A DNA stretch of 64,000 bases from a virus. The translations under genes were made by a program, and so were the position numbers. Where the stretch lies: the IMG/VR virus record IMGVR_UViG_3300028416_000009, positions 28,108-92,107 of that record; one strand, 5' to 3'. Under the pieces are notes generated by a model that saw nothing but the letters and a program-made list of their open reading frames with translations, ran no database searches and was not told where the DNA came from. Shown here one piece after another: positions 20,635 to 64,000 of this stretch (its first letter is position 1; each line of letters starts with the position of its first letter).

Positions 20635-20665
20635 TTTGGTAATACAAACTTAATTCTTATCTTTG
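20635..20665 (+). promoter_or_regulatory. Host-type promoter
   Basis: TTTG (20635-20638), exactly 19 bases, TATCTTTG (20658-20665). Near-ideal Bacteroidota promoter for the gene at 20689. Confidence 0.75.
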
Positions 20666-20688
20666 TTGAACATTAAAAGATAACAATT

Positions 20689-21105: not shown

Positions 21106-21110
21106 TAATT

Positions 21111-26373: not shown

Positions 26374-26374
26374 T

Positions 26375-28219
26375 TTATTGTTCTTTTTTTGTAAATATGT
26401 ATATTTTATTTGATGAGAATAGTCTATTTCTAGATTTATCTAACATCCAATCACCTCCAAATACTTGTTCTAATTCACCTTCAATATTACTTAAAATATC
26501 GGTAATATCTTCAGTGGCGATATAAATAACTTTAGATTCGTTTGATGTTACTCTAACATTTTTTATACGATTTTTATCGAAACTTAATTTATTATTTGTT
26601 TTAGCGACTGCGTCGTCTCCAATTTCTTCTATCTTTTTAAGTTCTAATGGTGTCGGGTTTGAAATCTTACTGGTTGCATCAATGATTCTTTCTTCTTCCT
26701 TTTCATCTTTTTCATCCTCGTCATACTTCTTTATAACGAATGACCCATTATTTAATTTTTCGATGACTTTCTGTGCGTAAACAGTTTCTTCATCTTTAAG
26801 ATATTCTTCAGAGGATACCTCCGAACCTAATGCCACAGACCCAATACTTGCTCGAGTACTGTCTTTTTCATAATGTTCTCTTGGGTTACCACCTTTCTCT
26901 ACTAATATATCAATCAGTTTTTCAATATTAGTTTTTTCAGGGTCTACTACCGGTGGTGTTTCTACTCCTGAATCTGATTTACTAGAAACCTCTTTATCTG
27001 TAGTTGTATCTTCTGGTGAAGATTTAGAATCTTCAGGAGATGACTTAGTGTCGTCAGAAGGTGCTTCAATATTATTGGCTTTTCTATAAAGAGATAACAT
27101 ATGGTTATAAGCCTTTCTATTCACACCTACTCTGATATCTCCTATCATCACATCCTCAACGTCTTCTTGTTCGTTTAAAAGGTTTTTACTTAATGAATAA
27201 CTCAATGTCTCATTAAGACCCTGTACGTTACGTACAACAGTCCCACGACTACCACAATCAATGTCTGTTGTTATAGCAACTGGTTGTGAATTAACTTTTT
27301 TATAGTATATGTTGGCAGTTAATACTCCTGATTTATTATAATAGAATATTGTTATCCAATTTTTTTCTGTCCTAATAGCTGCGTTATCGACTTCAGAACC
27401 ACCTATTTTAGCGAATTTCAATCCACCTGTTGTATAACATGAGATATCACCTGAAAGTTTAGTTTCAAACTCACTTTGTATTTTACCTTCATATTTTGAC
27501 ATGTCGATTGAGTTTATTAGTAATGGTATCTCAGAAGTATCCCAGTCACCGTCTAACCTATCAAAATTATTAGTAAATAAAGAATTATTAAATTCGTGGG
27601 TTTCTTGCCCTGATTTAAAAAATTTAGGGTACCAATCCTTAATATTTTGAGCAGTACCACCAATACTTAATTCCATTATTGCTCCTTCAACGTAACCAAT
27701 AACACTATTAGAAAAGACATCAATTTTGTCACTTTCTATTTTCTCCCAAAACTTTTCATAGGTAAATTCTTGGTTTCTTGACGCGAAATATACCCCAACT
27801 GTAAAGGCTTCTAATACTTCCCAAACTTTAAAATCTAAACCTTTCTTATCTACAATACTATTTGACTCCGCACCTGAAACTAAATTCTGTAAAATAACTA
27901 AAGAGTTATATAATTCGGTATTACTATCGATTCTACTACTAAGTTGATTAACAAATAATTTAGACGCTGAATTGATTACGGTGTCTAATTTACCAGAAAA
28001 AGGTTTTAGTTGTAATAACTTAACCCCTTTAGTTTTATCGACTAAATATGGTATTGATTTATTTACAACATCCTTAGCTCCGTCATATAAACCACTTACG
28101 GCACCAGTAGCGATATCCCATAAACCACCAACAAGACCGGGGTCTCCCTGTTCTGTTATGACAAAGTTTTTAGTTTCTACTTTGTTGATAAGACTTTTAA
28201 TTCTGTTTAATTCTTTCAT
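26375..28219 (-). CDS. Putative processed head or ejection protein (ITE leader)
   Basis: 614 residues. Leader ends in VITE-Q at residue 23. Then a Gly-rich amphipathic segment (PGLVGGLWDIATGAVSG), a helical first half, a beta-rich part with NWITIFYYNKSGVLTANIYYKK, a Ser/Asp/Glu-rich disordered linker (about 385-430) and a helical acidic end. One base separates it from the next gene. Multidomain make-up and leader fit an internal head or ejected protein; no known domain recognised. Confidence 0.6.
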   Translation of the reverse strand: MKELNRIKSLINKVETKNFVITEQGDPGLVGGLWDIATGAVSGLYDGAKDVVNKSIPYLVDKTKGVKLLQLKPFSGKLDTVINSASKLFVNQLSSRIDSNTELYNSLVILQNLVSGAESNSIVDKKGLDFKVWEVLEAFTVGVYFASRNQEFTYEKFWEKIESDKIDVFSNSVIGYVEGAIMELSIGGTAQNIKDWYPKFFKSGQETHEFNNSLFTNNFDRLDGDWDTSEIPLLINSIDMSKYEGKIQSEFETKLSGDISCYTTGGLKFAKIGGSEVDNAAIRTEKNWITIFYYNKSGVLTANIYYKKVNSQPVAITTDIDCGSRGTVVRNVQGLNETLSYSLSKNLLNEQEDVEDVMIGDIRVGVNRKAYNHMLSLYRKANNIEAPSDDTKSSPEDSKSSPEDTTTDKEVSSKSDSGVETPPVVDPEKTNIEKLIDILVEKGGNPREHYEKDSTRASIGSVALGSEVSSEEYLKDEETVYAQKVIEKLNNGSFVIKKYDEDEKDEKEEERIIDATSKISNPTPLELKKIEEIGDDAVAKTNNKLSFDKNRIKNVRVTSNESKVIYIATEDITDILSNIEGELEQVFGGDWMLDKSRNRLFSSNKIYIFTKKEQ

Positions 28220-30571: not shown

Positions 30572-30939
30572 TGGTAAAAAACAAAACAATATTTTGTGAT
30601 ATAGACGGAACTATATTTCATTATCGTAAGTTCGAAACTTATACAACATCAGAACCAACACCAATTGTAGATGTAATAGAAAAATTAAAAGAGTGGTATA
30701 ATAATGGTGAACACATTATATTAACAACGGCAAGACCTGAGTATTTAAGATACCAAACTCAAAAAGAATTAACAAAACACGATATACCATATAACACGTT
30801 ACTTATGGGTATCGGAAGGGGAGGGAGATATGTCATTAACGATATGGACCCAAACAAACCAGGAGAACGTGCAACAGGAATAAACTTAAAAAGAAATGAA
30901 GGATTTAAAGACATCGATTTATCGAATTTTAACTTGTAG
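30571..30939 (+). CDS. HAD-superfamily phosphatase-like protein
   Basis: 122 residues. Motif I FCDIDGTIF (nucleophile Asp and second Asp), motif II IILTTARPEY (Thr in place of Ser) and motif IV VINDMDP are seen in order. The short length means a minimal cap. Similar small proteins act as phosphatases on sugar phosphates or polynucleotide 3'-phosphates; which applies here is unknown. The downstream lipoprotein gene overlaps its end by 44 bases. Confidence 0.8.
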   Translation: MVKNKTIFCDIDGTIFHYRKFETYTTSEPTPIVDVIEKLKEWYNNGEHIILTTARPEYLRYQTQKELTKHDIPYNTLLMGIGRGGRYVINDMDPNKPGERATGINLKRNEGFKDIDLSNFNL

Positions 30940-31423
30940 TGTATTAGTATTATCATTGTTTAGTTGTGAGGCTGAATTTGATTTACCTGCAACACCAACA
31001 CTAAGTGGAACGTATAAAGTAGAATTTATATCAGCAACAGGACAAAACTTAATCACAGGTCAAGTCATCGATACTATGATTGTTGCAGGAACCTTTTCAA
31101 TGAAAGACCCGATAGAGCCATTAGATGTTTTAGATATTGGTGAGAGAATTCACTTCACATATGCTAAGGTATATGGAGGATACTATCTTTCTAATTTGGG
31201 CGATGAATGGGAATATGATTTTAATTACTACACGTATCAAGATTTAGCAACGGGAGAATATAGAAGAATTGAAATTGATTATTTCAACACTAAAAGAGTT
31301 TTCACTATTGTTGCGGATGGGATTGATTATCTAATACTATCGAGTTCAGGTCAGTGGGAAGATGGTTCTCCTGAAAAAACATTTACGAAATTTACAATGC
31401 ACTTAGAACGTATCGGACCTTAA
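30896..31423 (+). CDS. Lipoprotein, lipocalin-like beta-rich, unknown
   Basis: 175 residues. Signal peptide ending LFSC (Cys24), followed by acidic residues EAEFD. The mature part is beta-rich (LSGTYKVEFISATG, FTIVADGIDYLILSSSGQW, FTKFTMHLERI) like small Bacteroidota lipocalin-type lipoproteins. Likely exported to the outer membrane, perhaps the surface. In a phage such a protein might modify adsorption of other phages (inference). Confidence 0.68.
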   Translation: MKDLKTSIYRILTCSVLVLSLFSCEAEFDLPATPTLSGTYKVEFISATGQNLITGQVIDTMIVAGTFSMKDPIEPLDVLDIGERIHFTYAKVYGGYYLSNLGDEWEYDFNYYTYQDLATGEYRRIEIDYFNTKRVFTIVADGIDYLILSSSGQWEDGSPEKTFTKFTMHLERIGP

Positions 31424-33566: not shown

Positions 33567-34175
33567 ATGGAAGTTAACGTTATAATTATTGATAATTTTT
33601 ATCAAGACCCTGATGAAGTTAGGGAATTTGCTCTTAGCCAAGAGTTTGGTGTTAGAGGTAATTACCCTGGTAATAGAACAGAATCGTTTCTAAATGATGA
33701 GTTAAAACATTACATTAATAGTATTATTGAACCACACGATGGTAAGATAACATACTGGGGGGCTAACGATGGTCAGGATATGTATACGGGGGCGTTTCAA
33801 ATAACCACATCGTCTGACAGGACTTGGATACACTCTGATAGTACCACAGGTTGGGCTGGTGTATGTTACTTATCACCAAACGCACCACATACGGGAGGTA
33901 CAGGATTGTTTAGACATAAAGAGACCGGTGTGTATAGAGTACCTAGAGATGTTAATGGTGAAAGAGCCTCATTCAATGAAGAACCCTTATCGTTAATGGA
34001 AAACGATTACCAAGATTATACTAAATGGGAATTAGTGGATACTGTTGGTAACGTATATAATAGATTAGTGTTATACAGAGGAGACATTTTTCATGCGTCA
34101 TTAGATTACTTTGGTCATGATAATGAGAGTGGTAGGTTATTTCAAACGTTTTTCTTCAGTACAGAAAATACTTAA
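33567..34175 (+). CDS. 2OG-Fe(II) oxygenase-like protein
   Basis: 202 residues. WIHSDSTTGWAGVCYLSPNAP places HxD at His89-Ser-Asp91, followed by the typical strand and turn; the distal His is probably in GDIFHASLDYFG (about 172-183). The opening VIIIDNFYQDPDEVREFAL is shared by a phage group of such oxygenases. It hydroxylates an unknown target. A strong terminator follows. Confidence 0.78.
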   Translation: MEVNVIIIDNFYQDPDEVREFALSQEFGVRGNYPGNRTESFLNDELKHYINSIIEPHDGKITYWGANDGQDMYTGAFQITTSSDRTWIHSDSTTGWAGVCYLSPNAPHTGGTGLFRHKETGVYRVPRDVNGERASFNEEPLSLMENDYQDYTKWELVDTVGNVYNRLVLYRGDIFHASLDYFGHDNESGRLFQTFFFSTENT

Positions 34176-34229: not shown

Positions 34230-34925
34230 TTAACCCATTAAAGCCGTTATGGTTTTAGGTCCAACAATACCATCAGGTTTTAAGTTGTTCATCGATTGAA
34301 ATGCCGTTACTAATGCTGCGGTTTTAGGTCCGTAATTACCTAAATCTGATTGTTCAAAATCTATAGTAACACCAATAGTGTCCATCTTAGAAATTAAAAG
34401 TTCCTGAACGCTAACGACAGTATCTGAAGTTTCGTTACCTTGACCTTTCTTTAAGAACTGTTCTCCTGATTTAATTTTTTCAATGTCAAACGGGTCTGAA
34501 GACACTTCTTCTTCATTTTCTTCAGTATAACCTGGAAGTTCAACACCTATAGTCTTAAGGTGTGATAAAACTTCAGTTTCCTCTGTAGAACCGTTACCCA
34601 ACTCATCAGATACGAAGTATTCAAAACCTTGTGTTTCGTCACCAAAGTCTGTTGCTTTTAATAATTCATCAACTTGGTTAAATTCTTCTTTAGATTTAAT
34701 GTCTTTAACCGCAGAAATAAATTTAACGTTCTTTGTTCCTATACCATCAGCTGCGTCATATATTTTATTAGCAATTGCTTCGACACCACTAACGGTCTCT
34801 TCTTGCTCTTCTAATTCTATACTATCTTCTATTGAGTATTGAGATTCGTTAACTAATAACCCTCTACTTCTATCATAAGACATAATTTGTCTTAACCTGT
34901 TAATATTTTCGTTTATATTTTTCAT
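34230..34925 (-). CDS. Virion peptidoglycan-binding protein (VNE leader)
   Basis: 231 residues. Leader to LLVNE-S (residue 27). Residues about 50-95 (ANKIYDAADGIGTKNVKFISAV) resemble an annexin-like or phage-repeat helix motif. The C-terminal 65 residues are a PG_binding_1 domain (SVQELLIS, GNYGPKTAALVTAFQ, DGIVGPKTITALM). It would bind the cell wall during entry or lysis. No hydrolase domain is attached. TATTTATA lies 19 bases upstream. Confidence 0.78.
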   Translation of the reverse strand: MKNINENINRLRQIMSYDRSRGLLVNESQYSIEDSIELEEQEETVSGVEAIANKIYDAADGIGTKNVKFISAVKDIKSKEEFNQVDELLKATDFGDETQGFEYFVSDELGNGSTEETEVLSHLKTIGVELPGYTEENEEEVSSDPFDIEKIKSGEQFLKKGQGNETSDTVVSVQELLISKMDTIGVTIDFEQSDLGNYGPKTAALVTAFQSMNNLKPDGIVGPKTITALMG

Positions 34926-35325: not shown

Positions 35326-37614
35326 TTAAAGATTTTTCAACTCTGGTGGTAACATACTAACAGGTATGCCGAATTTCTTCTTTTCAGGACCGCCTTTAAA
35401 ATTAAATCCATCAATTGATGTCTCATATCCATTAACACTTGCCCATGTCTTATGACCAGCATTTAGAACTTGTCCGACAACGAATGGGAATCTAATGTTA
35501 TATTTGTTTATAATGTCCACAATCTGACCGTTAGGGTGTTTCTCCACAGTAATAGTCACTTTAGGGTTAACTATTTTTCTAAACACAACCTTATCGACTC
35601 TTCTTCTCATAAATGAGTTATCTTCATTTAAATCTTGAATCTCATCAACAGTGGTTACTACTTCAGGGTAAATCATACCTAAATTTTTATCGTCTTTACC
35701 TTCGTAATCTACTTTATTTAGAACTGTTCTAATTGAGTTAAGTGCTCCCGCTCTTTTATCGTTTGTGTCTACAACTGACCATGGAATTACCTCGGCAGTT
35801 TGTTTCAATGCCTTTTCTTTGTATTCAGTATAGTCGTCCCACTTATCAATAGAAGCCTCATCGTTAGGTGAGAATTTCCAATACTTAAGTGGTGAGTTCT
35901 TTCTCATATCAAAACGTTTCCTTTGTGTGTCTTGTGTTATAGATAACCAAAACTTAAAGACATCGTATCCTTTGGATAAAAGTGAACTTTCAAAACTACC
36001 CACATTCTCCATAAAGTCAGAATATTCTTCCATTGTTGAGTATCCCATAACTGGTTCCACAATACCTCTATTATACCAACTTCTGTCAAAGAATATGATT
36101 TTACCTGATTCGATTTCTCTTTCGTATCTATCAAACCAATTCTTTTTTTCTTCGGGGGTTGGTATTCCTAAAGCAACTACCTTATAGTATTGTGGTTGTA
36201 GGTATTCTATAAATTTTTTAATTGTTGACCCTTTACCTGCCGAATCCCTACCTTCAAATACAATAACAACAGATTTACCTGTTTTCTTAACGTGTTCCTG
36301 TAATTTCAATAGTTCTACCTGTAAAGGTCTTAGTTCTTTTATAAATGATTTTCTACCGATTTTAGATTTTTCTTGTTCCTCATCATCATCAACGAAATAA
36401 CTATCTTCGTGTTCAGGTTCAGGAGAAACTCTATCGGTAAGTGATTTCTTATATTTTTCGATATATTTTATGACATTATCTTCTACGTTACCAGACTTAA
36501 GTGATTTTCTATCTAAATTACGTAAAAAATCTTTGGTAACATCTTCATCTGTTAATCCAACAATAAGGTCATCGTATTTGGATGGTTCGATATCTAACTC
36601 ATAAAATTTAGTTAGTAAGTCCACTACCGATTCATTGAGTGAATAAAGTTTTGTTGCAAACTGTTCTTTATTATTATACAAATATTGTAAAACCTCAGGT
36701 CTTAGATATGCTTTTAAATCATCAGTAAATAACGAGTAAACTCTATCTATTGGTTTATTACCATCTTCATTTGGTAAATATGAATCGACCTCATCTTTGG
36801 TTACGAACGGGAATTTTAATTGGTATTCCTCTAAACCCTCTTTGGGTTTTATACCTATTGAGTGGTATTTAGTACCTCCGGACATTAATTCTCCACGATT
36901 AAGTATTCTATCGATTAAACCATATTCACCCAATAATGGGCACATACTGTAGTATATAGACCTTTCTTCTTTAACTAAACGTGCAAAAATAAATGTAATA
37001 TTAGTATCCTTAAAACAAGTCATTAAAAACTCTGACTTATCTTCTTTACTATAATCATCACTCCTTAAGAAAGTCATTACGTTTTTTAGTGATTCATCAT
37101 TTTCGTTGTCCTTATATTTAACCCTCTTATACTTATCGAATACCCCCTTATAAGAACCTAGTTTAAAACGTTCTGTACGTTTAATACCATCTGAAACGAT
37201 TTTTAAAGAATAATGATTACCCTTAATTATAATGTCCGCTTTTGGGTTCTTTTCATTGTTTGACGGGTCTTCATAATTTAATTTTGCGGTTGTTTCACCA
37301 CCAAATAATCCTGCGAATATTCCTTCAAACGAGAAACCTCTACCATCGGTAGTTCCTGAAAATCTGTTCCAATACTCGTGAAATCTAATCCTATCTTTTA
37401 CCTTTAATGCCTTATCAGGGTTTTCATAATTAACACCTAATTTAAGTCTCATTGCATTCCCTTCATCTCCTTTCATGATACCTTTTACCATATCCGAAGA
37501 TGCTATGTTGTCCATGTGTATACCGCCTAACAACTTAATTGCCTTAATTATATGGTCTTCAGACGATTCATTAAGAATATTGACTATCTGTTTATTTGTG
37601 AATTTTATCTTCAT
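35326..37614 (-). CDS. Polyphosphate kinase 2 fused to a phage head-type domain
   Basis: 762 residues from the ATG at 37614, chosen over an upstream ATG because it gives the leader MKIKFTNKQIVNILNE-S (LNE at 14-16) and places TATTTATA 17 bases upstream. Residues 1-400 are a phage-specific region with ADIIIKGNHYSLKIV (about 126-140), which could be a PD-(D/E)xK-like core. Residues about 420-635 are a PPK2 domain: FEGRDSAGKGS (Walker A, about 453-463), FDRSWYNR (509-516) and the lid with RKRFDMR. PPK2 moves phosphate between polyphosphate and nucleotides. The last 130 residues are unrecognised. Packaging into the head is inferred from the leader. Confidence 0.88.
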   Translation of the reverse strand: MKIKFTNKQIVNILNESSEDHIIKAIKLLGGIHMDNIASSDMVKGIMKGDEGNAMRLKLGVNYENPDKALKVKDRIRFHEYWNRFSGTTDGRGFSFEGIFAGLFGGETTAKLNYEDPSNNEKNPKADIIIKGNHYSLKIVSDGIKRTERFKLGSYKGVFDKYKRVKYKDNENDESLKNVMTFLRSDDYSKEDKSEFLMTCFKDTNITFIFARLVKEERSIYYSMCPLLGEYGLIDRILNRGELMSGGTKYHSIGIKPKEGLEEYQLKFPFVTKDEVDSYLPNEDGNKPIDRVYSLFTDDLKAYLRPEVLQYLYNNKEQFATKLYSLNESVVDLLTKFYELDIEPSKYDDLIVGLTDEDVTKDFLRNLDRKSLKSGNVEDNVIKYIEKYKKSLTDRVSPEPEHEDSYFVDDDEEQEKSKIGRKSFIKELRPLQVELLKLQEHVKKTGKSVVIVFEGRDSAGKGSTIKKFIEYLQPQYYKVVALGIPTPEEKKNWFDRYEREIESGKIIFFDRSWYNRGIVEPVMGYSTMEEYSDFMENVGSFESSLLSKGYDVFKFWLSITQDTQRKRFDMRKNSPLKYWKFSPNDEASIDKWDDYTEYKEKALKQTAEVIPWSVVDTNDKRAGALNSIRTVLNKVDYEGKDDKNLGMIYPEVVTTVDEIQDLNEDNSFMRRRVDKVVFRKIVNPKVTITVEKHPNGQIVDIINKYNIRFPFVVGQVLNAGHKTWASVNGYETSIDGFNFKGGPEKKKFGIPVSMLPPELKNL

Positions 37615-37631
37615 TGTTTTAACGTTATGTA

Positions 37632-37639
37632 TATAAATA
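37632..37639 (-). promoter_or_regulatory. TATTTATA motif, candidate phage late promoter
   Basis: TATTTATA on the minus strand, 17 bases before the preferred start at 37614. Confidence 0.45.
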
Positions 37640-37713
37640 TTAAATAATTCACTAATTATGTCTATAGTATAATATAAAACATAATTAACTCTACTTTTGG
37701 TTTTAACCAAATC

Positions 37714-40055: not shown

Positions 40056-40790
40056 ATGATTAACAAAGACTTAAACATACGAGAGTTAAAATATCAATTT
40101 TTAAAAAACGGTATTGTTACAATTAATGATTGGTTAGATGAAGAATACGCAGAAAAACTGTGGAATCATTTAAATTCAATGCCTCAAGATTGGTGGAATG
40201 TTTCGTCCAGACCGTCTAAAGACCAAGACATGCACATTACAAGATGGACAGAAGATAATCTAGATTATATTAAAACATCTGATGAAACTGCTAGAAAGGC
40301 TTTTAGTGAAGACAAATTTTCTTATAGTTTTAGAAGGACAAACGATGACCACGTAGATGGTTGTTGGTGTGAGGAATGTCAATTCAGACATGACGTACTG
40401 TCAGAAGAGGTAGTATCTTTTTTAGATTATTTAACAGGATATAAAGTAACAAAAATTAATGAGTTATTTGCTTCGTGGTATACGGATAGAGATTTCTTAT
40501 CTCCTCATAGTGACGGACCAAACGGGGTGTTAGGGTTTGTATATAACTTAAGTAAAGATTGGAAACCTCAATATGGTGGTAACTTACATTTTCAAGATAA
40601 AATGAACGAAAACTTGATTGAGAAAATAAATGTTCCTAAATTTAATACACTAACGATGTTTGATTTAGCTACGAGTATGGGTCATATGCACTACGTATCC
40701 GAAGTTGTACCAAATGTAAAGGCAAAAAGATTAGCCATGGCCGGTTGGTGGGGACAAGAAACAGGTAATAAAAATACATTAAACTATTAA
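40056..40790 (+). CDS. 2OG-Fe(II) oxygenase, prolyl-hydroxylase-like
   Basis: 244 residues. HxD at His151-Ser-Asp153 (FLSPHSDGPNG), typical middle strand YGGNLHF, and the distal His at 210 or 212 (MGHMHYV) before the Arg-Leu region (KAKRLAMAGWW). A CxxC-like cluster CWCEEC near 103-108 is an unusual insertion. One base separates it from the next oxygenase. Confidence 0.82.
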   Translation: MINKDLNIRELKYQFLKNGIVTINDWLDEEYAEKLWNHLNSMPQDWWNVSSRPSKDQDMHITRWTEDNLDYIKTSDETARKAFSEDKFSYSFRRTNDDHVDGCWCEECQFRHDVLSEEVVSFLDYLTGYKVTKINELFASWYTDRDFLSPHSDGPNGVLGFVYNLSKDWKPQYGGNLHFQDKMNENLIEKINVPKFNTLTMFDLATSMGHMHYVSEVVPNVKAKRLAMAGWWGQETGNKNTLNY

Positions 40791-40791
40791 A

Positions 40792-41424
40792 ATGGAATTA
40801 AAAAACACAATAGGTCACTTTGAAGGAGCATTTACTCGTGAAGAGTGTGACTTAATTTTAGAAAGATTCGAAAGAGCAAAAACATTAAAATTAGCATATC
40901 AGGGACAATCAGGTTCAGGAGTGAACGATACAATAAAATCATCGATTGATTTTGATATTCTTTCGTCACCAGTAGAAGACGATGTATTATTTGGTTATGG
41001 TGTAATTGAAAAATTTAATGAAATTGTTGTAAACCAATATTTAGGTAGTTTCCCTCACCAAGACGAGACTAAACCAGGTGAGGATTTATTCTTGGCACCT
41101 ACTTTCTATGAACTACTACAGGTTCAAGAATATCCTAAATCTACAGGTCACTATAACGCATGGCACGCAGAGACAGGAACCTTCGAAATGAGTAGAAGAT
41201 TATTTTCTTTCTTACTTTACTTAGACGACGTAGAAGAAGGTGGAGAAACCGATTTTATATATGCCAATGGCGAAGATGGTAAAATGTTATCATTCAAACC
41301 GAAAAAGGGTACATTATTAATTCATCCAGCGTCTTTCCCTTATATACATAGAGGAAGAACCCCAATGTCTTCAAATAAAACAATATTAACCACGTGGCTA
41401 TCATATGAACCTGAATACGAATAA
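40792..41424 (+). CDS. 2OG-Fe(II) oxygenase, P4H-like with HxE triad
   Basis: 210 residues. GHYNAWHAETG gives His125-Ala-Glu127, an HxE instead of the usual HxD. The strands LFSFLLYLDDVEEGGETDF match P4H proteins exactly in layout, and distal His186 (SFPYIHRG) and a Lys/Thr-containing end follow. Fe(II) binding by HxE is known in a few oxygenases. Overlaps the methyltransferase gene by 20 bases. Confidence 0.85.
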   Translation: MELKNTIGHFEGAFTREECDLILERFERAKTLKLAYQGQSGSGVNDTIKSSIDFDILSSPVEDDVLFGYGVIEKFNEIVVNQYLGSFPHQDETKPGEDLFLAPTFYELLQVQEYPKSTGHYNAWHAETGTFEMSRRLFSFLLYLDDVEEGGETDFIYANGEDGKMLSFKPKKGTLLIHPASFPYIHRGRTPMSSNKTILTTWLSYEPEYE

Positions 41425-44841: not shown

Positions 44842-45150
44842 ATGGATAACTACATAGTATTATATGGTATAGTTGTTTTTGTCGTGTTTATTAAATACGC
44901 ATGGATAGAATATATTGTAATGAGAAAGAATCCTTCTAAATATAGAAAGGACTTTGTCAGTAATACAACACGTAGAGAAATTATCTTTGAAATACTTCAC
45001 AAATTATATACACACCCTACCTTTACTAAAGGAAATAAATCTTCTGTGACCGATAATATAACAACGATTAGGTCGGTCGTTAAACAATACCTTAAAGATA
45101 GTGAGTCTAATGATGAGAACCCCAAAGATAGAAAGAATAAAGGTAGGTGA
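44842..45150 (+). CDS. Single-pass membrane protein, unknown
   Basis: 102 residues: N-terminal membrane helix (about 5-24) and a charged, helical tail ending in a basic Asn/Lys stretch. The next gene overlaps its end by 50 bases if its first ATG is used. Confidence 0.55.
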   Translation: MDNYIVLYGIVVFVVFIKYAWIEYIVMRKNPSKYRKDFVSNTTRREIIFEILHKLYTHPTFTKGNKSSVTDNITTIRSVVKQYLKDSESNDENPKDRKNKGR

Positions 45151-45730
45151 TTACTACGTTTATACTACGGAATTTCAAAAAATAAAAGATTTAGACGACG
45201 ATAAGTTAATTAAAGATATATGGTCTGATGATTATTTAGGTACTAATAAGAATGAAGATGGTGTTATAGTAGACCAAGGACCTGGGGTACATTTTTCATT
45301 GGATGTTGATAACTTACCTTACTTCGCAAATGACCCTTATTGGTTTGCATTGACATTCGCTCGTTCACTCAGAAGTTTAGAGGGTAAAAATTTAGACTTA
45401 CTTAATTCTACATTATGGATTATTGCCGCACAGGACGAACATACACCATATTGGCATACACATCGTAAAAATATCGCAGACCCAAGAATTGAAGGTGATG
45501 ATAATCAGGTCGATTCGACTTATTCGTTTTCCTTTTACTTAAACACTTTAGAGTGTGGTTCCCCATATTCTGATTTATTATTTGCACACAAAGAAGACGT
45601 ATACTCAATGCCGGTTACTAAAGGTAAGATGTGTTTCTTTGATGGTGATGTATTTCATAAACCAAAGTTAGTACCTAAAGAATTTGGTTGGAGGTATTGT
45701 ATTGCGGGTGACTTACTATTTCATGAATAG
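45101..45730 (+). CDS. Putative 2OG-Fe(II) oxygenase-like protein
   Basis: 209 residues; start uncertain (an ATG at 45113 is also possible). HTPYWHTHRKNIADPR could provide the first ligands, FSFYLNTLECGSPYSDLLFAHK the next strand, and FDGDVFHKPKLVPKEFGWRY the distal His and Arg. The HxD pattern is not clean here, so this is the weakest member of the oxygenase set. Confidence 0.55.
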   Translation: MSLMMRTPKIERIKVGDYYVYTTEFQKIKDLDDDKLIKDIWSDDYLGTNKNEDGVIVDQGPGVHFSLDVDNLPYFANDPYWFALTFARSLRSLEGKNLDLLNSTLWIIAAQDEHTPYWHTHRKNIADPRIEGDDNQVDSTYSFSFYLNTLECGSPYSDLLFAHKEDVYSMPVTKGKMCFFDGDVFHKPKLVPKEFGWRYCIAGDLLFHE

Positions 45731-45732
45731 AT

Positions 45733-46872
45733 ATGTTAGATAACCTACTAAGTAAATTAAAGGATAGTGTGGATGGTAACACGTTCAGTAAGGTAAGAAC
45801 GTTACTAAGTTTAGAACCGACTGTTTATGATAAGTCATATGATTTCCCAAATCGAGGTGGTGATATTGCCGTTGTATGGTATCTATTTGGTTTAAAACCT
45901 GAGTATATATATTTGGGATATTATTCCGTAGTATCTTTCTTACGTAGAACCGATTTAAAAGATTTTGACAGATACATATGTGTTCCTGAAGACTATGCGT
46001 TTATGGAATATATGCCGTTGTTTGAAGAGTTAGGTTTTAAAATACATACATCGTCATATCATTTCAAAGCACTTAAACCTGATTCATCTCTAATCGATAA
46101 CTATGATTACTTAATCACGTTAGACACTGACATATATTCTTTTGATGTTAGTGGGAATAGATACCCTTATTTTGAAGGTATTGAAGAGTTAGTTAAGTCC
46201 TACCGTAAGATTGGTGTTCGTCTTCCTTTTATGTGTGCCTCTTTAAACACAGGGTTTGGTCATCACATTAATAGACTTTCCGATATTATTTCAATTATTT
46301 CAGATGAGCCTGAGAAAACTAGAATAAATAAATACATATGGGAGTCAGAACATTATGATGGTGAAACTGCGTTTGATAATATTATAACTACGGATAAGTC
46401 TGACGATATACTATTCATTTTAAACTCAGTTGTTGATTACCTATCGATACCGTTCACTAGTGAAGAGGATAAGAAAAATTTGGTTGAAAATGCTTATAAT
46501 AAGTTCTTATGTCATCCGTGGCCAGTTAATGAGATATTTTCGTATCCGACCGAAATATTTAAAAAACACGGTATTCATGAGATTATAAACAAATTCCAAT
46601 CAGTACAACGATGGTTTTGGGACGATGAATTAGTGTATAAATTATATTATACATTGTATGTTATGGACGACACCTTTTCGTTTACTCAACTAATGGGTTA
46701 TAATCATTTTGATAATACAACTAATCGTGTATATGCAAATGATAAAGACGAGGATTTAAAACCAAATACTTTATACTTCACACATCCGTTTAACGAGATT
46801 AATGTCGATGATGTGGTATCAGTGAACACATTATTAAAAAGAATCGGTTACATCCCGTCTACTAAGTCGTAG
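45733..46872 (+). CDS. Glycosyltransferase-like protein
   Basis: 379 residues. YLITLDTDIYSFDV (about 137-150) carries a DxD-type motif; the front PNRGGDIAVVWYLFGL and the pattern LNTGFGHHINRLSDII resemble the layout of the protein at 22498. It would transfer a sugar. It is two bases after an oxygenase-like gene and converges on the cytochrome lipoprotein gene, overlapping by 25 bases. Confidence 0.65.
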   Translation: MLDNLLSKLKDSVDGNTFSKVRTLLSLEPTVYDKSYDFPNRGGDIAVVWYLFGLKPEYIYLGYYSVVSFLRRTDLKDFDRYICVPEDYAFMEYMPLFEELGFKIHTSSYHFKALKPDSSLIDNYDYLITLDTDIYSFDVSGNRYPYFEGIEELVKSYRKIGVRLPFMCASLNTGFGHHINRLSDIISIISDEPEKTRINKYIWESEHYDGETAFDNIITTDKSDDILFILNSVVDYLSIPFTSEEDKKNLVENAYNKFLCHPWPVNEIFSYPTEIFKKHGIHEIINKFQSVQRWFWDDELVYKLYYTLYVMDDTFSFTQLMGYNHFDNTTNRVYANDKDEDLKPNTLYFTHPFNEINVDDVVSVNTLLKRIGYIPSTKS

Positions 46873-48245
46873 AGAGTATTAATCTTAGTGATTAATGTTG
46901 TTTTTTCCGTCTGTGTTAAGAATCCTTTGTTTTCAACAAACATCTTTAGACTTGGATTACCATCATCGTTTTTTAAGTACCCTAACGTAACCTGAATTCC
47001 TTCATTAGTTAAAAGTGTAAAGTCACTGTTGTTATTCGCACCGTCAATAAGAAAGTCTAACCCAAATTTTACTGATTCGTAAAACATATCGTCACTAGTT
47101 ATGTAACCCATAGTAAAAACATCATCATACATACGTTGACTGTTAGGTGAACGGTTAACAATACTTTTAAGGATAACTAACGATGCTAAGTCTTCTTCGC
47201 CGAAGTCTTTAAGAGCCGTACCGATGTATTGTGACTCGTTAGAGTTACGTTTACCGTAATTAGTTAACCAACCCAAGTACAACCACTGAACCTCGTTTAG
47301 AAGTCGGTTATCGACCTCATCACCATTACCTACATTAGACCCGTTATCTTGACTTCTACGAGCAATGTTACCCACATCCCAAATTCCATCAGAGATAGAA
47401 AAATTCCCTAAATCGTAACCACTTAATTCTTCACCAAACTCTAAATCACTATTTGGTTTTATTACGTGTTGCATGTATAGAGTTGCCATCCAACGTTGGT
47501 AATCAAAAGATTTGTCGAAGTTGTTAAATCCGTGTTCACCTGGATTACGTTCACCCTCACTTAACTTATAGTGTGAATGAATTAGTAGAGTTTTTAAGTT
47601 TTCTTTAGTTGGGTTATCGATGTAGTTGAGGTACTCATCATCATATTCAATACCTTTTTCAGTTAATAGGTCGGTTTCAGGTAACCAATCTAAATTATCG
47701 TCATACATTGTGTTAGTCTCATCGCCCTTAAACCAACGAGGAAATTCAAAATCATATGATATCCCATCACGGAAATCCCAATTGTTAATTTCGTTGACTG
47801 TTAATGAGGTAGTTCCGTCCCAAACCTGAGATGGTTCGACACCGTTAGAGTTGTCAATACCAATCATAGTGGATAGCGACCCATTGTTGTTTGGTTGTGC
47901 GTTTAATGTTTTTAAATATGCCGCAATATGATATGACTCTTCTAATGTGATATGACCTGTAGCTCTTTTAACTACAATAGAATCTTGTTGTCTAATATCT
48001 ATTTTACCGAATTGTACGATATCGATACCTGTTGGTGATAAATGACAACTAACGCAAGAACGACCATCACTATCTTTTGAATTGAGGTATAAGTTTAACC
48101 CTAATGAAGAATCTCCGTATAAGTCAACTGAGTCGGAAATGTTGTTAGAAATTTCAATATCAACTGGTGGTACTTCAATGTATATTTCGTCTTTTTCACA
48201 AGACATTACAGTAAGTACAAAAACAAGTAGGATTAATTTTTTCAT
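46848..48245 (-). CDS. Surface lipoprotein with c-type heme motif
   Basis: 465 residues. Signal peptide ends VMSC (Cys16) and is followed by EKDE, an acidic run like the Bacteroidota surface-export signal. SCVSCHLSPTG (Cys64, Cys67, His68) is a covalent heme-binding CxxCH site, and ITLEESYHIAAYLKTL resembles the C-terminal helix of class I cytochrome c domains. A Met axial ligand is not evident. The remaining 330 residues are unrecognised. The gene has a near-perfect host promoter. If functional it needs host heme-attachment machinery. Role could be redox or receptor masking (inference). Confidence 0.78.
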   Translation of the reverse strand: MKKLILLVFVLTVMSCEKDEIYIEVPPVDIEISNNISDSVDLYGDSSLGLNLYLNSKDSDGRSCVSCHLSPTGIDIVQFGKIDIRQQDSIVVKRATGHITLEESYHIAAYLKTLNAQPNNNGSLSTMIGIDNSNGVEPSQVWDGTTSLTVNEINNWDFRDGISYDFEFPRWFKGDETNTMYDDNLDWLPETDLLTEKGIEYDDEYLNYIDNPTKENLKTLLIHSHYKLSEGERNPGEHGFNNFDKSFDYQRWMATLYMQHVIKPNSDLEFGEELSGYDLGNFSISDGIWDVGNIARRSQDNGSNVGNGDEVDNRLLNEVQWLYLGWLTNYGKRNSNESQYIGTALKDFGEEDLASLVILKSIVNRSPNSQRMYDDVFTMGYITSDDMFYESVKFGLDFLIDGANNNSDFTLLTNEGIQVTLGYLKNDDGNPSLKMFVENKGFLTQTEKTTLITKINTLYDLVDGM

Positions 48246-48269: not shown

Positions 48270-48300
48270 CAAAGATAGTAAATTAAGTTTGAATTACAAA
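48270..48300 (-). promoter_or_regulatory. Host-type promoter for the cytochrome lipoprotein
   Basis: On the minus strand TTTG (48297-48300), exactly 19 bases, TATCTTTG (48270-48277). The start is at 48245. Confidence 0.78.
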
Positions 48301-48306
48301 ATGTTA

Positions 48307-49233
48307 TTAGAACATCTCATCAAGAATATCATCAATTACCGAACTATCAGGAGATTCAAAACCACTATTAACTAATATTTTATGGTCCTTTTTTTCAAAT
48401 CTAAGTCCTTGATGTTCCACTTCAAACTTCCAATCGGTCGATTCATATTCACTCTTAAGATATGCAGTGTGACTACGGAAAAAACTATATTCGATTGGTG
48501 GGTCGTAATTATCACATATTTTTTCAAATTGACTTAATGTTTCCTGACCCTCTTCTAATTCCGTCACAAATTCCTTAACTCTGTCATCAATTACAACATA
48601 AGAATCGACTTCAAATTCTAATTCATAATTTTCAAATGACGTGTCTGTACCACACTCTTCACAATCAACGTTACCGTATCCCGCACATTCAGGACAATCT
48701 ATTGAATAATCACCATCACATTCTTCACAGGCAGTTAAACCAGTACCGTTACAATGTCTACAGTCATCATCATCTCCATCACAGTGTTCACATTCGACCG
48801 AACCCTCATCACATTCTTGACAGTCTACCTCAGCATAACCATCACAGATAACACAAACTATCGTCCCTTCCCCTTCACACTCTCCACAGTCATTTCTTTG
48901 TAATGATTCGTGACCCATGAAATCGATGTAATAAATAATATTTTCTTTCTTTAATACTCTTAAATATGCCTCCTCAAATAACATACCTTTAATATCCATT
49001 AGATACGCAATAAACCCAACACAATCTCTTTCAAAGGTGATAGGTACGTCTAAATTAAATTTAGAGGTCTTAATTATTTTATTAACCATTTTTTTTTCTA
49101 AAACTCTGGTGTACCACTGTAATGTAGGTTTATCAGTTTCAAACTTATGTTTATTAAGTTTAGTCACCATTAAAGCCACATTGACTAATTGTTTTATATT
49201 GTTTTTAAATGGTATTTCATCGTACTTAGACAT
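48307..49233 (-). CDS. DnaJ-type cysteine-rich zinc-finger protein without J domain
   Basis: 308 residues. A central region of about 80 residues (about 115-198) has eight CxxC motifs in CxxCxGxG-like repeats (for example CGECEGEG, CRHCNGTG, CPECAGYG), which can hold four zinc ions like a double DnaJ cysteine-rich domain. No J domain (HPD) is present. The ends are helical and acidic. With DnaK in the same genome it may deliver substrates to DnaK or act alone (inference). Confidence 0.8.
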   Translation of the reverse strand: MSKYDEIPFKNNIKQLVNVALMVTKLNKHKFETDKPTLQWYTRVLEKKMVNKIIKTSKFNLDVPITFERDCVGFIAYLMDIKGMLFEEAYLRVLKKENIIYYIDFMGHESLQRNDCGECEGEGTIVCVICDGYAEVDCQECDEGSVECEHCDGDDDDCRHCNGTGLTACEECDGDYSIDCPECAGYGNVDCEECGTDTSFENYELEFEVDSYVVIDDRVKEFVTELEEGQETLSQFEKICDNYDPPIEYSFFRSHTAYLKSEYESTDWKFEVEHQGLRFEKKDHKILVNSGFESPDSSVIDDILDEMF

Positions 49234-49332: not shown

Positions 49333-49497
49333 ATGAACTTGAAGTCTGATGTTTGGAATCTAATTTTAGAAACGGTTAGGAAATATCCTAATGATATGGA
49401 GTTAGGTGAATACGTTCGTCGGAAAACACTTTCATACGAAAGAAGACAACAAAGAAATAAAAATACACACTTAAAAGATAAGAATGATAGTAATTGA
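49333..49497 (+). CDS. Small basic protein, unknown
   Basis: 54 residues starting MNLKSDVWNLILETVRKY; basic second half (RRKTLSYERRQQRNK). It overlaps the oxygenase gene by 14 bases. A minus-strand frame over the same area is a shadow. Confidence 0.55.
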   Translation: MNLKSDVWNLILETVRKYPNDMELGEYVRRKTLSYERRQQRNKNTHLKDKNDSN

Positions 49498-50104
49498 TAA
49501 TTTTGTCCAAGATGAAAATCTACTAAAAAGAATAAGAGAGTCCTTAACTCAAGAGAACTCAGAATTTTGGGGTAGTCACGGAAACTACGCTTGGTATGAA
49601 GGTTGGTGGAATAGAAAACCTGAGACATTAAGGGAAGAATTAATTGAATATATTTGGGGGACTCATTGTCCGTTAAAGGAAGATTTAAAAGTCGAAGGGT
49701 TTGAACATTGGACGGGTATTCAATCCGCTTCTGACCAAACAAAAGAGGACCATTTAAAACAACACTTTGATAAAGACGAAGACCTGTGGCATTTTACAGG
49801 AGAAGTTAAAAGACCCGTAATCGGCACCGTTTACTACCCAATAGAACACGATATTGATGGTGGTGCATTACAAGTTTGGAACACCTACGAATTAGATTAT
49901 GATGCCGGATATGAACAAATACACCCAAAACCAAATAGACTTATCATATTCGATGCAGGTCAATTACATAGAGTACAACAAGTAACGAGAGGGACTAGAT
50001 ACGCAATTGCAATCAATCTATGGGATTACAAACCATTAACTATTGAAAATATAGAATCAAAGAAAGGTACGTTCTACGAACAACAAGACCAAGGACTTAT
50101 TTAA
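49484..50104 (+). CDS. 2OG-Fe(II) oxygenase-like protein
   Basis: 206 residues. HxD at His94-Phe-Asp96 (KQHFDKDE), strand VIGTVYYPIEHDIDGGALQVW, distal His162 (AGQLHRVQQV) and Arg169 in TRGTRYAIAINLW, which would bind 2OG. The opening IVIDNFVQDENLLKRI is like that of the protein at 33567, so the two are related. A strong terminator follows. Confidence 0.83.
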   Translation: MIVIDNFVQDENLLKRIRESLTQENSEFWGSHGNYAWYEGWWNRKPETLREELIEYIWGTHCPLKEDLKVEGFEHWTGIQSASDQTKEDHLKQHFDKDEDLWHFTGEVKRPVIGTVYYPIEHDIDGGALQVWNTYELDYDAGYEQIHPKPNRLIIFDAGQLHRVQQVTRGTRYAIAINLWDYKPLTIENIESKKGTFYEQQDQGLI

Positions 50105-54524: not shown

Positions 54525-55076
54525 ATGAAATTCAGAAAAACATTTATTGAGGGACCTGTAGAGTTTACCCCTATACAACATAAGGACGAAAGAGGAGTTT
54601 TCTCGGAAACTTATAGTCAGATACTATTAGAGAAAAATGGATTCAATTATAAGTTTATCCAAGAAAATCAAACAACATCAAAAAAAGGTGTCTTTAGAGG
54701 AATACACTGTCAATTACCACCATATACTCAAGGTAAGTTAGTGAGAGTTGTTAAGGGTAAAGTTGTTGATTTTGCAATAGACCTTAGAAGAACTTCAGAT
54801 ACTTACGGACAATGGGAATCAGTAATCTTAGACGGAGATGTAGGAAACCAATTTTGGGTACCACCTGGATTTGGACATGCGTTTTACACGTTAGAAGATG
54901 ATACCATTGTCACCTATAAATGTACTAATCTTTACGATAAAGAACACGAAGTCTGTATCGACTACACAGACGAAGATATCAACTTACCACTTAAAGACCT
55001 GAAAGACCTTATCATATCTGACAAAGATAAGAATGGTGTTTCTTTTATGGATTTTAACAAAAAAAATCCTTGGTAG
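54525..55076 (+). CDS. rfbC: dTDP-4-dehydrorhamnose 3,5-epimerase
   Basis: 183 residues, full length for the family. DERGVFSETY at the front, FRGIHCQL with catalytic His61, GKLVRVVKGKVVDFAIDLR, and PPGFGHAFYTLEDD all match RmlC cupins. It makes dTDP-4-keto-rhamnose from dTDP-4-keto-6-deoxyglucose. RmlA, B and D are not seen, so it may borrow the host pathway and redirect surface sugars (inference). Confidence 0.93.
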   Translation: MKFRKTFIEGPVEFTPIQHKDERGVFSETYSQILLEKNGFNYKFIQENQTTSKKGVFRGIHCQLPPYTQGKLVRVVKGKVVDFAIDLRRTSDTYGQWESVILDGDVGNQFWVPPGFGHAFYTLEDDTIVTYKCTNLYDKEHEVCIDYTDEDINLPLKDLKDLIISDKDKNGVSFMDFNKKNPW

Positions 55077-55466: not shown

Positions 55467-55497
55467 TTTGTTGTATCAATTTAATTTTGTATCTTTA
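55467..55497 (+). promoter_or_regulatory. Host-type promoter for the NlpC/P60-type lipoprotein
   Basis: TTTG (55467-55470), exactly 19 bases, TATCTTTA (55490-55497). Confidence 0.65.
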
Positions 55498-55516
55498 TAG
55501 TCTAATAAAAAACATC

Positions 55517-56125
55517 ATGAAAAAAATAAAAAATATCTTAGTATTATTATCCGTATTAGTTTTAACACACTCTTGTGCTCAACCAACCTACACCCCTGAA
55601 AATGGTGATGTGATATTTCACACTTCAAAATCCAGACAAAGTAAAATGATTTCTGAGGTTACCGGCTCAAAGTTAACTCACGTGGGTATGGTATTCATTA
55701 ATGAAGGTAATACATACGTTTATGAGGCAGTACAACCTGTAAAACTAACCCCTATAGACCAATGGGTTAAAAGAGGAGTGGACTCAAAATACGTAGTTCT
55801 AAGAAGTAAGAACACTCTTAGCGGTGAAGAACTACTAAAGATGAAAAACTATGGTTTAAATCAAATAGGAAAAGATTATGACCTTAAATTTCAATGGTCT
55901 GACAGTAAGATGTATTGTTCTGAATTGATTTACAAAGTATTTGAGAGTGTAGGTATTGTTTTATCTGAAAAACATACATTCAAAGATTATGATTTAAAAA
56001 GTGAATCAGCTCAAATCGCCATTAAAAAACGTTACGGTAATAGTATTAACCTTAATGAACTTGTGGTTACACCGGTTGATTTACGTAAAAGTAATAAACT
56101 AAGAGTGGTGTTTAATAATTACTAA
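55517..56125 (+). CDS. YiiX-type permuted NlpC/P60 lipoprotein
   Basis: 202 residues from ATG 55517. Lipobox THSC. GDVIFHTSKSRQSKMIS then LTHVGMVFIN (His first) and MYCSELIYKVF (Cys later) is the permuted NlpC/P60 order of YiiX-like proteins; the Cys and His are both present. It would cleave an amide or peptide bond, possibly in peptidoglycan or lipid, on the periplasmic side. It converges on another permuted NlpC-like gene. Confidence 0.8.
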   Translation: MKKIKNILVLLSVLVLTHSCAQPTYTPENGDVIFHTSKSRQSKMISEVTGSKLTHVGMVFINEGNTYVYEAVQPVKLTPIDQWVKRGVDSKYVVLRSKNTLSGEELLKMKNYGLNQIGKDYDLKFQWSDSKMYCSELIYKVFESVGIVLSEKHTFKDYDLKSESAQIAIKKRYGNSINLNELVVTPVDLRKSNKLRVVFNNY

Positions 56126-57300
56126 ACCACAACTGAATCAACTGAGTACTTATTAAATTGTTTAATAACACCTGTTGGGTTTGGAAAACAAAAATCCCCC
56201 ATTGGTACTCCACCCGCTTTCGCTATTTCGATAGTGTATGTTCCGCAATTAGCATCATCATCACTTGTTGAACCATCAAAAGCTTCATATTTTTTAGTTG
56301 TGACTTTAGTTGCTTGACTTATTGAATCATTAACGTTAGTAACAGGTATCAAACGACAATCCATTTTCTGTGTTGGACCCTCACCCTGACTATTTGATTT
56401 AATTTTAGTACAAATATCTTTAAAGTTATTCACAATACCATCATTGATTTCAGCGATTTTACCTAAACCTTTACTTTTAGTAATTCCATAACCTTTATCT
56501 GCTCCTGAATATCTACCAAACTCAAAAATACTAACTTGTCCATTAGGTTCCACAGTCGCAATACCCATATGACCTAATTTACCATATGTGTCATCACTAC
56601 TTCCACCTGTTACATATTTTAGGATTGGAGTAAACCATGAACTTCCACCCTTTTCAATTTTAGGTTCATACTCTGGAAAAACAAATGGTATTAGAAAGTG
56701 ACCTATTGTTGTATCGTAGTCACCTTTAACCACTGAATCGTATAGTCCACCACTAAACTTAGATATCTTACTCGACATCGAATTAGAATCATCATAAAAA
56801 CTTTCCCATAACTCAAATAATTGTACTGTTTGACCTTCCTTGAAAGAATAAAGGTCTTTTTTCATTACAACATTAACAACGGCAACTTTCATAATGTACG
56901 AATTATCATGTTTACCTGTCTTATCTAAACTATACTTTTTAGCTATTTTAGGAAACGTTTTATTAACGTATTTTCTAAATGAATTTCCCTCTTCTTCGTT
57001 TTTAAATGAAGGGGTGTTACTATCCTTTACTTGATTATTATCGGATTTTGAATCGTCTGGATTACCTGTTGTGGTTGCGTTAGGGTACTTTTTATTAAGC
57101 TTATAAATAGATTTAGGATATTTATTAAGTGAAAACCATTTGGATTCTCCTTTTTTAGTCGCCATCCACTTATTGTTAACGACTTTATAATCGTACTTAC
57201 CGTCGTAGTCAGTATATATCTTTTCTTTTTGTTCCTTTAGTATGTTGCTTACAATAAGCTTAAGGTCTGCTTCTGTTAATTTAATTACCTTAGACGCCAT
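56122..57300 (-). CDS. Putative virion protein with permuted NlpC/P60-type domain (LKE leader)
   Basis: 392 residues. Leader MASKVIKLTEADLKLIVSNI followed by LKE-Q at residue 23. GHMGIATVEPNGQVSIFEFGRY (about 240-262) supplies the His and strand, and NCGTYTIEIAKAGGVP (about 353-368) the Cys, in the same permuted order as the neighbour at 55517. It could cleave peptidoglycan or a host amide during entry (inference). TATTTATA lies 33 bases upstream. Confidence 0.68.
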   Translation of the reverse strand: MASKVIKLTEADLKLIVSNILKEQKEKIYTDYDGKYDYKVVNNKWMATKKGESKWFSLNKYPKSIYKLNKKYPNATTTGNPDDSKSDNNQVKDSNTPSFKNEEEGNSFRKYVNKTFPKIAKKYSLDKTGKHDNSYIMKVAVVNVVMKKDLYSFKEGQTVQLFELWESFYDDSNSMSSKISKFSGGLYDSVVKGDYDTTIGHFLIPFVFPEYEPKIEKGGSSWFTPILKYVTGGSSDDTYGKLGHMGIATVEPNGQVSIFEFGRYSGADKGYGITKSKGLGKIAEINDGIVNNFKDICTKIKSNSQGEGPTQKMDCRLIPVTNVNDSISQATKVTTKKYEAFDGSTSDDDANCGTYTIEIAKAGGVPMGDFCFPNPTGVIKQFNKYSVDSVVV

Positions 57301-58321: not shown

Positions 58322-58711
58322 ATGGAATTAATATCAACACACCCCGTTAAGAAATCAGACTTAGGATTTCACGGAAACTTATTTGGAGGTAAATTATTGG
58401 CATGGGTAGATGCTGCAGGAGCTGCATTCGCATCTCAAATATGTGATACACCAAGAATGGTCACAGTTCTTATTGATGAATGTGTGTTTAAGAAACCAGC
58501 AAAAGAAGGGCATCTACTTAAAATTTATGGTGATGTAGGACAAATTGGTCGAACTTCGGTAACACTGAAGGTTGAGGCTAGAAGTCACAACGTATACGAT
58601 GGGAGACAAGCAATTATCTTAGCTACTAATATTAAGTTTGTTAGGATAGATGAGCAAGGTGAAGCAATACCTATCAGTCAACGAGTTAAAGAAAAATACA
58701 ATTTAAAATAG
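58322..58711 (+). CDS. Acyl-CoA thioesterase, YciA-type hotdog fold
   Basis: 129 residues. GNLFGGKLLAWVDAAGAAFASQ is the HotDog motif with the catalytic Asp, followed by VFKKPAKEGHLLKIYGDV and SVTLKVEARSH, which fit the YciA/acyl-CoA hydrolase pattern. It would hydrolyse acyl-CoA in the cytoplasm and could alter host lipid or membrane composition. It is driven by a host-type promoter. Confidence 0.85.
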   Translation: MELISTHPVKKSDLGFHGNLFGGKLLAWVDAAGAAFASQICDTPRMVTVLIDECVFKKPAKEGHLLKIYGDVGQIGRTSVTLKVEARSHNVYDGRQAIILATNIKFVRIDEQGEAIPISQRVKEKYNLK

Positions 58712-63393: not shown

Positions 63394-64000
63394 TTAGTTT
63401 TGGGTATCACCGTCACAGTCAGTAAAACCAACGTCACTTACCGCTCCACCTATAACCTTTATCCATCTAACTGGTGACATGTCCGTTGAATTAATAATTT
63501 CTCCGTTCACCACATAGAACCCATCCATTACAGGGTTAGTTAACTCTGCGTTTCTAAATATAGGTTTACCTAATAAATTTGGTATTGAATATCCCGTCTC
63601 ATCAACCCAAAATGGTGATGTTACTTCATAACCTGGTTCTTCACAAACATTGTTATTTATCTCCGCTAATACCGTAGATTTAAAATACTGATACGATGGT
63701 GGAAGAGAGTATGTTGTTGTTGTCGTTATATTCTCTGTCGTTGTCGTAGTAGTCACATCTTCTGTAGTAGTAGTTGTAGTCACATCTTCTGTAGTAGTAG
63801 TTGTAGTCACATCTTCTGTAGTAGTAGTTGTAGTCACATCTTCTGTAGTAGTAGTTGTAGTTACATCTTCTGTGGTAGTAGTTGTAGTTACATCTTCAGT
63901 TGTCGTTGTAGTTGTTACATCTTCTGTAGTAGTTGTTGTCGTTACATCTTCAGTAGTCGTTGTAGTTGTTGACGGAATCACCGTTATCTGAACATTGTAT
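63394..64000 (-). CDS. Threonine-rich repeat protein, virion or surface type (partial)
   Basis: The frame is open to the right edge, so the true N-terminus lies outside; upstream codons read on in frame before the repeats. A block of 8 tandem 9-residue repeats (EDVTTTTTT, 27 bases each) is followed by a degenerate ninth and then a compact C-terminal domain of about 110 residues (ends VGFTDCDGDTQN). Thr-rich linkers occur in phage fibres and in Bacteroidota surface proteins. A virion fibre or adhesin with a stalk is the best guess. Confidence 0.72.
   Translation of the reverse strand, partial: YNVQITVIPSTTTTTTEDVTTTTTTEDVTTTTTTEDVTTTTTTEDVTTTTTTEDVTTTTTTEDVTTTTTTEDVTTTTTTEDVTTTTTTENITTTTTYSLPPSYQYFKSTVLAEINNNVCEEPGYEVTSPFWVDETGYSIPNLLGKPIFRNAELTNPVMDGFYVVNGEIINSTDMSPVRWIKVIGGAVSDVGFTDCDGDTQN
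63715..63975. repeat. 27-base tandem repeat array (TTTTTTEDV coding)
   Basis: About eight to nine copies with a 27-base period, the middle copies identical and the outer ones diverged by silent changes. The array keeps the reading frame, so gains and losses of whole units would change stalk length without a frameshift. Confidence 0.8.

Follow-up and report, generated by a model that had tools for sequence, protein, structure and literature searches.

On balance we favour, with modest confidence, the reading of the 465-aa product of ORF 46848-48245 as a host-derived mono-heme cytochrome lipoprotein of a T4-like Bacteroidota phage, given a new destination on the surface of infected cells, where it would serve as an electron shuttle. 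The gene is located in the window, i.e. the whole stretch of 64,000 nt analysed here, which spans positions 28108-92107 in a virus record of 92,107 bases. Its position as well as a lipobox with Cys16 had been described in a sequence-only reading of this DNA, and both agree with the sequence; the gene lies on the minus strand and starts with ATG. The protein begins with MKKLILLVFVLTVMS followed by CEKDEIYIEV..., C16 completing a good lipobox, and export to the periplasm is predicted via the lipoprotein signal peptide. All features of the gene are summarised in Table 1.

Table 1. Features of the cytochrome-like gene and its flanks. Positions are those of the window.
Feature	Position	Strand	Basis
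CDS, 465-aa mono-heme cytochrome c-like lipoprotein	46848..48245	-	ATG start; full-length homolog
Lipoprotein signal peptide, residues 1-15	48201..48245	-	sequence; lipobox VMS/C
Lipid-anchor Cys16 and surface-export signal C-E-K-D-E-I	48183..48200	-	exact match to C-X-K-(D/E)2-X
Predicted heme domain, residues 36-118	47892..48140	-	conservation; weak profile similarity to cytochrome c4, SoxA, di-heme peroxidase
Heme-c attachment motif CVSCH, residues 64-68 (C64-V-S-C-H68)	48042..48056	-	CxxCH in 13/13 homologs
His98, proposed distal heme ligand	47952..47954	-	His in 12/13 homologs by eye; role inferred
His260, second candidate ligand or catalytic residue	47466..47468	-	invariant, 13/13
C-terminal region, residues 119-465, without known domain	46851..47891	-	co-conserved with heme domain in homologs
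Tail-to-tail overlap, 25 bp, with convergent ORF 45733-46872 (+)	46848..46872	.	sequence; no bacterial flank
Bacteroidota-type promoter TTTG-N19-TATCTTTG	48270..48300	-	exact consensus match; 24 bp upstream of ATG

The record is a true phage. Outside the window the same contig encodes, by sequence, a terminase large subunit, a portal, a prohead protease, a T4-type major capsid protein and DnaK. The capsid protein shares 43% identity over 58% of its length with that of Flavobacterium phage immuto and 30% over 95% with that of Rhodothermus phage RM378. The window itself harbours a ClpA/B-like ATPase, an endolysin domain and eight tRNAs, and its GC content ranges from 28 to 35% in 2-kb steps. As expected of a phage-borne host-derived gene, the cytochrome-like gene combines a homolog on a cellular chromosome with a bona fide phage genome. 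The last 25 bp of the ORF lie on the 3' end of its convergent neighbour, and there is no bacterial flank; the gene is settled in the phage genome. For this convergent neighbour no relatives were found in IMG/VR. On the other side, 61 bp separate the start of the gene from ORF 48307-49233 (-), whose product contains many CxxC pairs with likeness to DnaJ-type zinc-finger repeats and has IMG/VR relatives (L017-L019) at 29% identity.

A pattern scan of 84,980 genomes revealed one homolog matching over the full length, L001:7977-9371, with 50% identity (E 2e-158). It originates from the Schleiferiaceae MAG MOX_bin104 (JAKMGS010000030.1) and adjoins fumC. Since fumarase, adenylate kinase and Obg-type genes are present on this contig, it is considered chromosomal. 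Among the 88 genomes of the same family this is the only one with a homolog; a second match (L008:751-1791, E 7e-4) is a di-heme peroxidase. Remote homologs comprise a Gemmatirosa megaplasmid protein (25%, pairwise E 2e-12) and a 516-aa lipoprotein in genome G373, in whose order 9 of 129 genomes, G373 counted, carry a homolog. The cytochrome-like lipoproteins of this order (L014, L101-L108) show 15-20% identity, and two large multidomain proteins, L122 and L123, are further remote members. The latter measure 750-900+ aa and resemble a CBM at the N-terminus (PF14683, below cut-off at E 4e-4 and 0.022), in L122 along with an Ig-like domain (PF16158) and, by eye, a T9SS-like sorting-type tail. 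They may represent secreted cytochromes possibly tied to polysaccharide chemistry. Among the candidates rejected, L012 is an unrelated ORF, L013 was discarded on a match position shared with L012, and L124 and L125 are by sequence two-heme peroxidase-type proteins. The family is spread over Bacteroidota and Gemmatimonadota. In the tree, the phage protein and the MAG protein form a fully supported pair inside the cellular family, and the Gemmatirosa row forms a long branch of unsure placement. The natural reading is a transfer from host to phage, although the occurrence of the MAG gene is itself sporadic.

The heme-c motif pointed out by the sequence-only reading is present and kept throughout the family (Table 1). 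The corresponding DNA pattern TGYNNNNNNTGYCAY occurs 2 times in the window at 2.09 expected, which is chance level; hence the heme claim rests on homology. CxxCH does not occur in any of the other 44 proteins predicted for the phage in the window. The 13-row alignment comprises ten invariant residues (C64, C67, H68, D75, R94, I107, W171, P189, H260 and W321), W171, P189 and W321 being located in the C-terminal region of all 13 members. Every one of the ten is retained by the phage copy, which for this reason does not look decayed. The automatic alignment spreads the His98 site across a few columns; read by eye as one site, a His follows the R94 motif, just ahead of the last heme-domain helix, in 12 of 13 members, with Asp in L107. 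As a conserved Met is missing in the family, we propose bis-His ligation.

Comparing the family profile with the PDB resulted, up to E 1, only in cytochrome c4 (0.013, 0.057, 0.059) and SoxA (0.76), matches which are all cytochromes, yet weak. The cytochrome c homology suggested earlier is weakly supported: the best profile matches are the faint ones to cytochrome c4, the phage protein finds no match in Pfam, and the family is contained in neither Pfam nor NCBIfam. Searches of the phage protein against Pfam, NCBIfam, PHROGs and, as a single sequence, the PDB returned nothing of note. AlphaFold2, run with two rows on the whole protein and on the heme domain, produced low-confidence models (pLDDT 37 and 48). 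That no curated cytochrome family is matched significantly, and that L107 has no proposed distal His, argues against the cytochrome reading.

The gene neighbourhood of the cellular relatives is telling. In most genomes of the G373 order the gene adjoins small outer-membrane beta-barrel proteins, and an ECF-type sigma factor gene is close. A PQQ-type sugar dehydrogenase (GSDH) is encoded on the same contig in six genomes (L113, L114, L115, L116, L118 and L119), with CcmF next to it in L116, L118 and L119; in L116, CcmE and a second c-heme assembly protein are also present. The GSDH/ccm genes lie at a distance of ~5-9 kb from that of the cytochrome. Of these assignments, GSDH and CcmF (L116, L118, L119) as well as CcmE, the second assembly protein and two barrels (L116) were confirmed with Pfam, the remaining ones being read from the sequences. 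The vicinity of c-heme assembly and sugar dehydrogenase genes supports the view that the family would represent true electron-transfer c-type cytochromes. Such a context is found neither at L001 nor in the phage and therefore bears on the family, not directly on the phage copy.

The acidic residues after Cys16 had been taken for a Bacteroidota surface-lipoprotein signal. The sequence supports this, as C-E-K-D-E-I fits exactly the optimal signal C-X-K-(D/E)2-X derived from mutagenesis in Capnocytophaga canimorsus (PMC5080379). In other phage proteins xK[DE][DE] occurs at a rate of 0.0019 per residue. The nine cellular lipoprotein homologs with known N-terminus (CNKTPP in L001, CGGASA, CTDTGL, CSDLPY, CNTTPY, CNDSVT, CNRSVS, CSRSIN, CSRTIP) do not show K-(D/E)2 in any case. 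Judged by these N-termini, the surface signal is present only in the phage copy, and because it is missing in the cellular relatives, those are predicted to face the periplasm. Surface exposure of the phage lipoprotein is a prediction, as the signal differs among Bacteroidota genera and may not be that of the host. Two other predicted phage lipoproteins have acidic residues, CEQEP (9009) and CEAEF (30896), with the full motif missing. The former (9009-9860) is a predicted matrixin-type peptidase lipoprotein (PF00413), the latter (30896-31423) a predicted small lipoprotein; 55487-56125 encodes a predicted exported YiiX-type C92 amidase (PF05708).

The promoter had been ranked among the best host-type promoters of the window, and indeed it represents one of 6 exact TTTG-N19-TAnnTTTG sites therein (1.76 expected; 6 are reached by 2 of 100 shuffles). 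Early expression, which had been deduced from this promoter, is conceivable. Promoter and leader read TTTTG.TAAT.CAAACTTAATT...TATCTTTGTT...AAAAGATAAC..ATG, and a near-copy sits upstream of ORF 20689. The alignment of both scores 29 versus maxima of 19-26 in six randomised windows, which is suggestive of a promoter/leader common to both genes. Regions upstream of 9009 and 55487 also resemble the cytochrome promoter with a score of 25, i.e. inside the random range. Behind ORF 20689 (region 20635-21632) a glutathione peroxidase of the Cys type is encoded at 21111-21632 (+) (PF00255, E 1e-16).

With either the protein itself or its remote relative L014 as tblastn query, a collection of 50,697 phage records gave no homolog. 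Likewise, no true relative emerged when IMG/VR was scanned with the protein, with A1 and L001, and with DNA patterns taken from two conserved stretches; these scans, whose reach covers mainly close relatives, also brought up L009 and L128, which are unrelated. A homolog is lacking, too, from the 50 IMG/VR records in which a related capsid gene occurs, many of these records being fragments. PF13442 matched neither the virus record nor 34 related virus records; since this model misses the query protein too, the result covers ordinary cytochromes only. The rarity of cytochrome c in phages asserted before is well in line with these searches, and the protein is the single phage copy of the family known. 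A study of nitrogen-cycling phages encountered neither cytochromes nor other specific electron carriers in them (PMC8115048).

The phage encodes further conspicuous proteins. At 35326-37710 (-) a polyphosphate kinase 2 domain (PF03976, E 2.8e-69) occupies residues 455-674 of a 794-aa protein whose N-terminal part has no assignment, a fusion that is unusual for a phage. At least five ORFs resemble 2OG-Fe(II) oxygenases by eye (17698-18330, 33567-34175, 40056-41424, 45101-45730, 49484-50104) and thereby form an expansion; 45101-45730 matches phrog_81 weakly (E 0.008). An N-terminal I-x-R-I-x-x-L-I/x-E-like motif is common to many proteins (19227-19670, 25726-28219, 34230-34925, 56122-57300) and recurs beyond the window in genes of the capsid region, for instance with the ending IRRIKEMMGIVK. 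It may mark head-targeting peptides that the prohead protease cleaves off. Moreover, genes for a papain-family peptidase (6692-7471 (+), PF00112), a dTDP-4-dehydrorhamnose 3,5-epimerase (54525-55076 (+), PF00908) and a 4HBT thioesterase (58322-58711 (+), PF03061) are present, and a TTTTTTEDV-repeat ORF (63394-63981 (-)) is a candidate low-complexity surface or tail protein.

For the favoured surface cytochrome we infer all mechanistic steps beyond the sequence features. A T4-like phage of Bacteroidota would have taken up the gene of a mono-heme c-type cytochrome lipoprotein from a bacterium and kept it intact under a host-type promoter, such that host RNA polymerase would transcribe it. Sec and LspA would turn the product into a lipoprotein, in the periplasm the c-heme assembly machinery of the host would attach heme at CVSCH, the Lol pathway would deliver the lipoprotein to the outer membrane, and the CEKDE signal would flip it to the cell surface. 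There it would most likely carry single electrons for oxidoreductases of the outer membrane or the surface and so sustain redox flow in the infected cell. In view of the gene neighbourhood in cellular relatives, the partner is perhaps of the sugar-dehydrogenase type. A more far-reaching proposal, that the gained K-D-E signal turned an outer-membrane cytochrome, whose relatives are predicted to face the periplasm, into a cell-surface one, and that infected cells are thereby linked to extracellular electron donors or acceptors by a viral conduit, is rather doubtful.

Lipid anchor and surface signal, the latter gained only in the phage copy, would equally suit a protein that masks receptors or excludes superinfection, blocking adsorption or DNA entry of other phages with the heme site as an inherited scaffold; the host-type promoter would allow its expression soon after entry. 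However, no homology to named superinfection-exclusion proteins was seen in PHROGs or Pfam, and masking does not need the heme motif and the invariant residues, which are nevertheless retained. We consider this role quite improbable. A similarly low probability is assigned to peroxide defence, in which a cytochrome c peroxidase-like protein at the surface or in the periplasm would consume H2O2 together with the phage glutathione peroxidase. The region around the heme motif does resemble a di-heme peroxidase (39% over 31 columns; E 7e-4 in the genome match), and the ORF upstream of the glutathione peroxidase carries the near-copy of the cytochrome promoter. Yet CCP_MauG proteins possess two heme motifs compared to one here, the PF03150 profile matches none of 11 family members, and 25 kb separate the glutathione peroxidase gene from that of the cytochrome. 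In the relatives a glutathione peroxidase is absent.

It seems unlikely that the gene is a mere passenger, i.e. a recent accidental acquisition functionless for the phage. Its sporadic occurrence, with no copy in the capsid-related records, fits this idea, as does its deviating composition (GC 35.4% vs 32.1% in the window; GC3 0.30 vs 0.21-0.29 in seven other phage genes). In contrast, all 465 codons are intact including every family-invariant residue, the promoter is of the phage-genome type and common to another phage gene, and the export signal was gained. As to an assembly artefact joining a bacterial gene to a phage contig, the contig is metagenomic and no second copy was found; but the overlap with the neighbouring ORF, the uniformly low-GC flanks without an adjoining bacterial housekeeping gene and the resemblance of the promoter to another one of the same record render it extremely improbable.

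Phage-borne host redox genes are known as such. What is new is a predicted surface address missing from the relatives, in an unnamed cytochrome family. Oxidase subunits carried by viruses are described in the papers found, whereas a lipid-anchored c-type cytochrome directed to the cell surface is reported in none of them. If the surface cytochrome reading is true, the phage depends on c-heme attachment and lipoprotein-flipping pathways of its host and alters redox chemistry at the outer face of the infected cell. Furthermore, Bacteroidota and Gemmatimonadota turn out to share an unnamed cytochrome family, whose function is testable owing to its telling neighbourhood of barrels, sugar dehydrogenase and ccm genes.

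Among the systems compared, the Schleiferiaceae MAG lipoprotein (L001) is closest to the phage protein, with a lipobox, CxxCH, His98 and His260 in common. It differs by its chromosomal location next to fumC and by CNKTPP in place of the surface signal, and it has no annotated family. The G373-order lipoproteins share the single CxxCH, the same conserved residues and the length class, but are distant in sequence, embedded in barrel/GSDH/ccm surroundings and devoid of the K-(D/E)2 signal. Di-heme cytochrome c peroxidases and MauG (PF03150, e.g. L008:751-1791) exhibit a similar stretch around the first heme motif, yet by motif number and profile the phage protein falls outside this group. CBM-linked cytochromes such as CjX183 in Cbp2D of Cellvibrio japonicus serve as electron donors to LPMOs (PMC8981238). 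Like the phage protein they are exported, and a larger protein encloses their small cytochrome domain of the c type; the CBM-like N-terminus of L122/L123 adds to this likeness. The phage protein has no CBM, and its membership by sequence in this group is conjectural. Finally, reads of cbb3-type oxidase subunit I in the marine viral fraction (PMC3474794) represent a host-derived redox gene likewise attributed to viruses, whereas the phage lipoprotein, unlike this oxidase subunit, would be a lipid-anchored c-type electron carrier.
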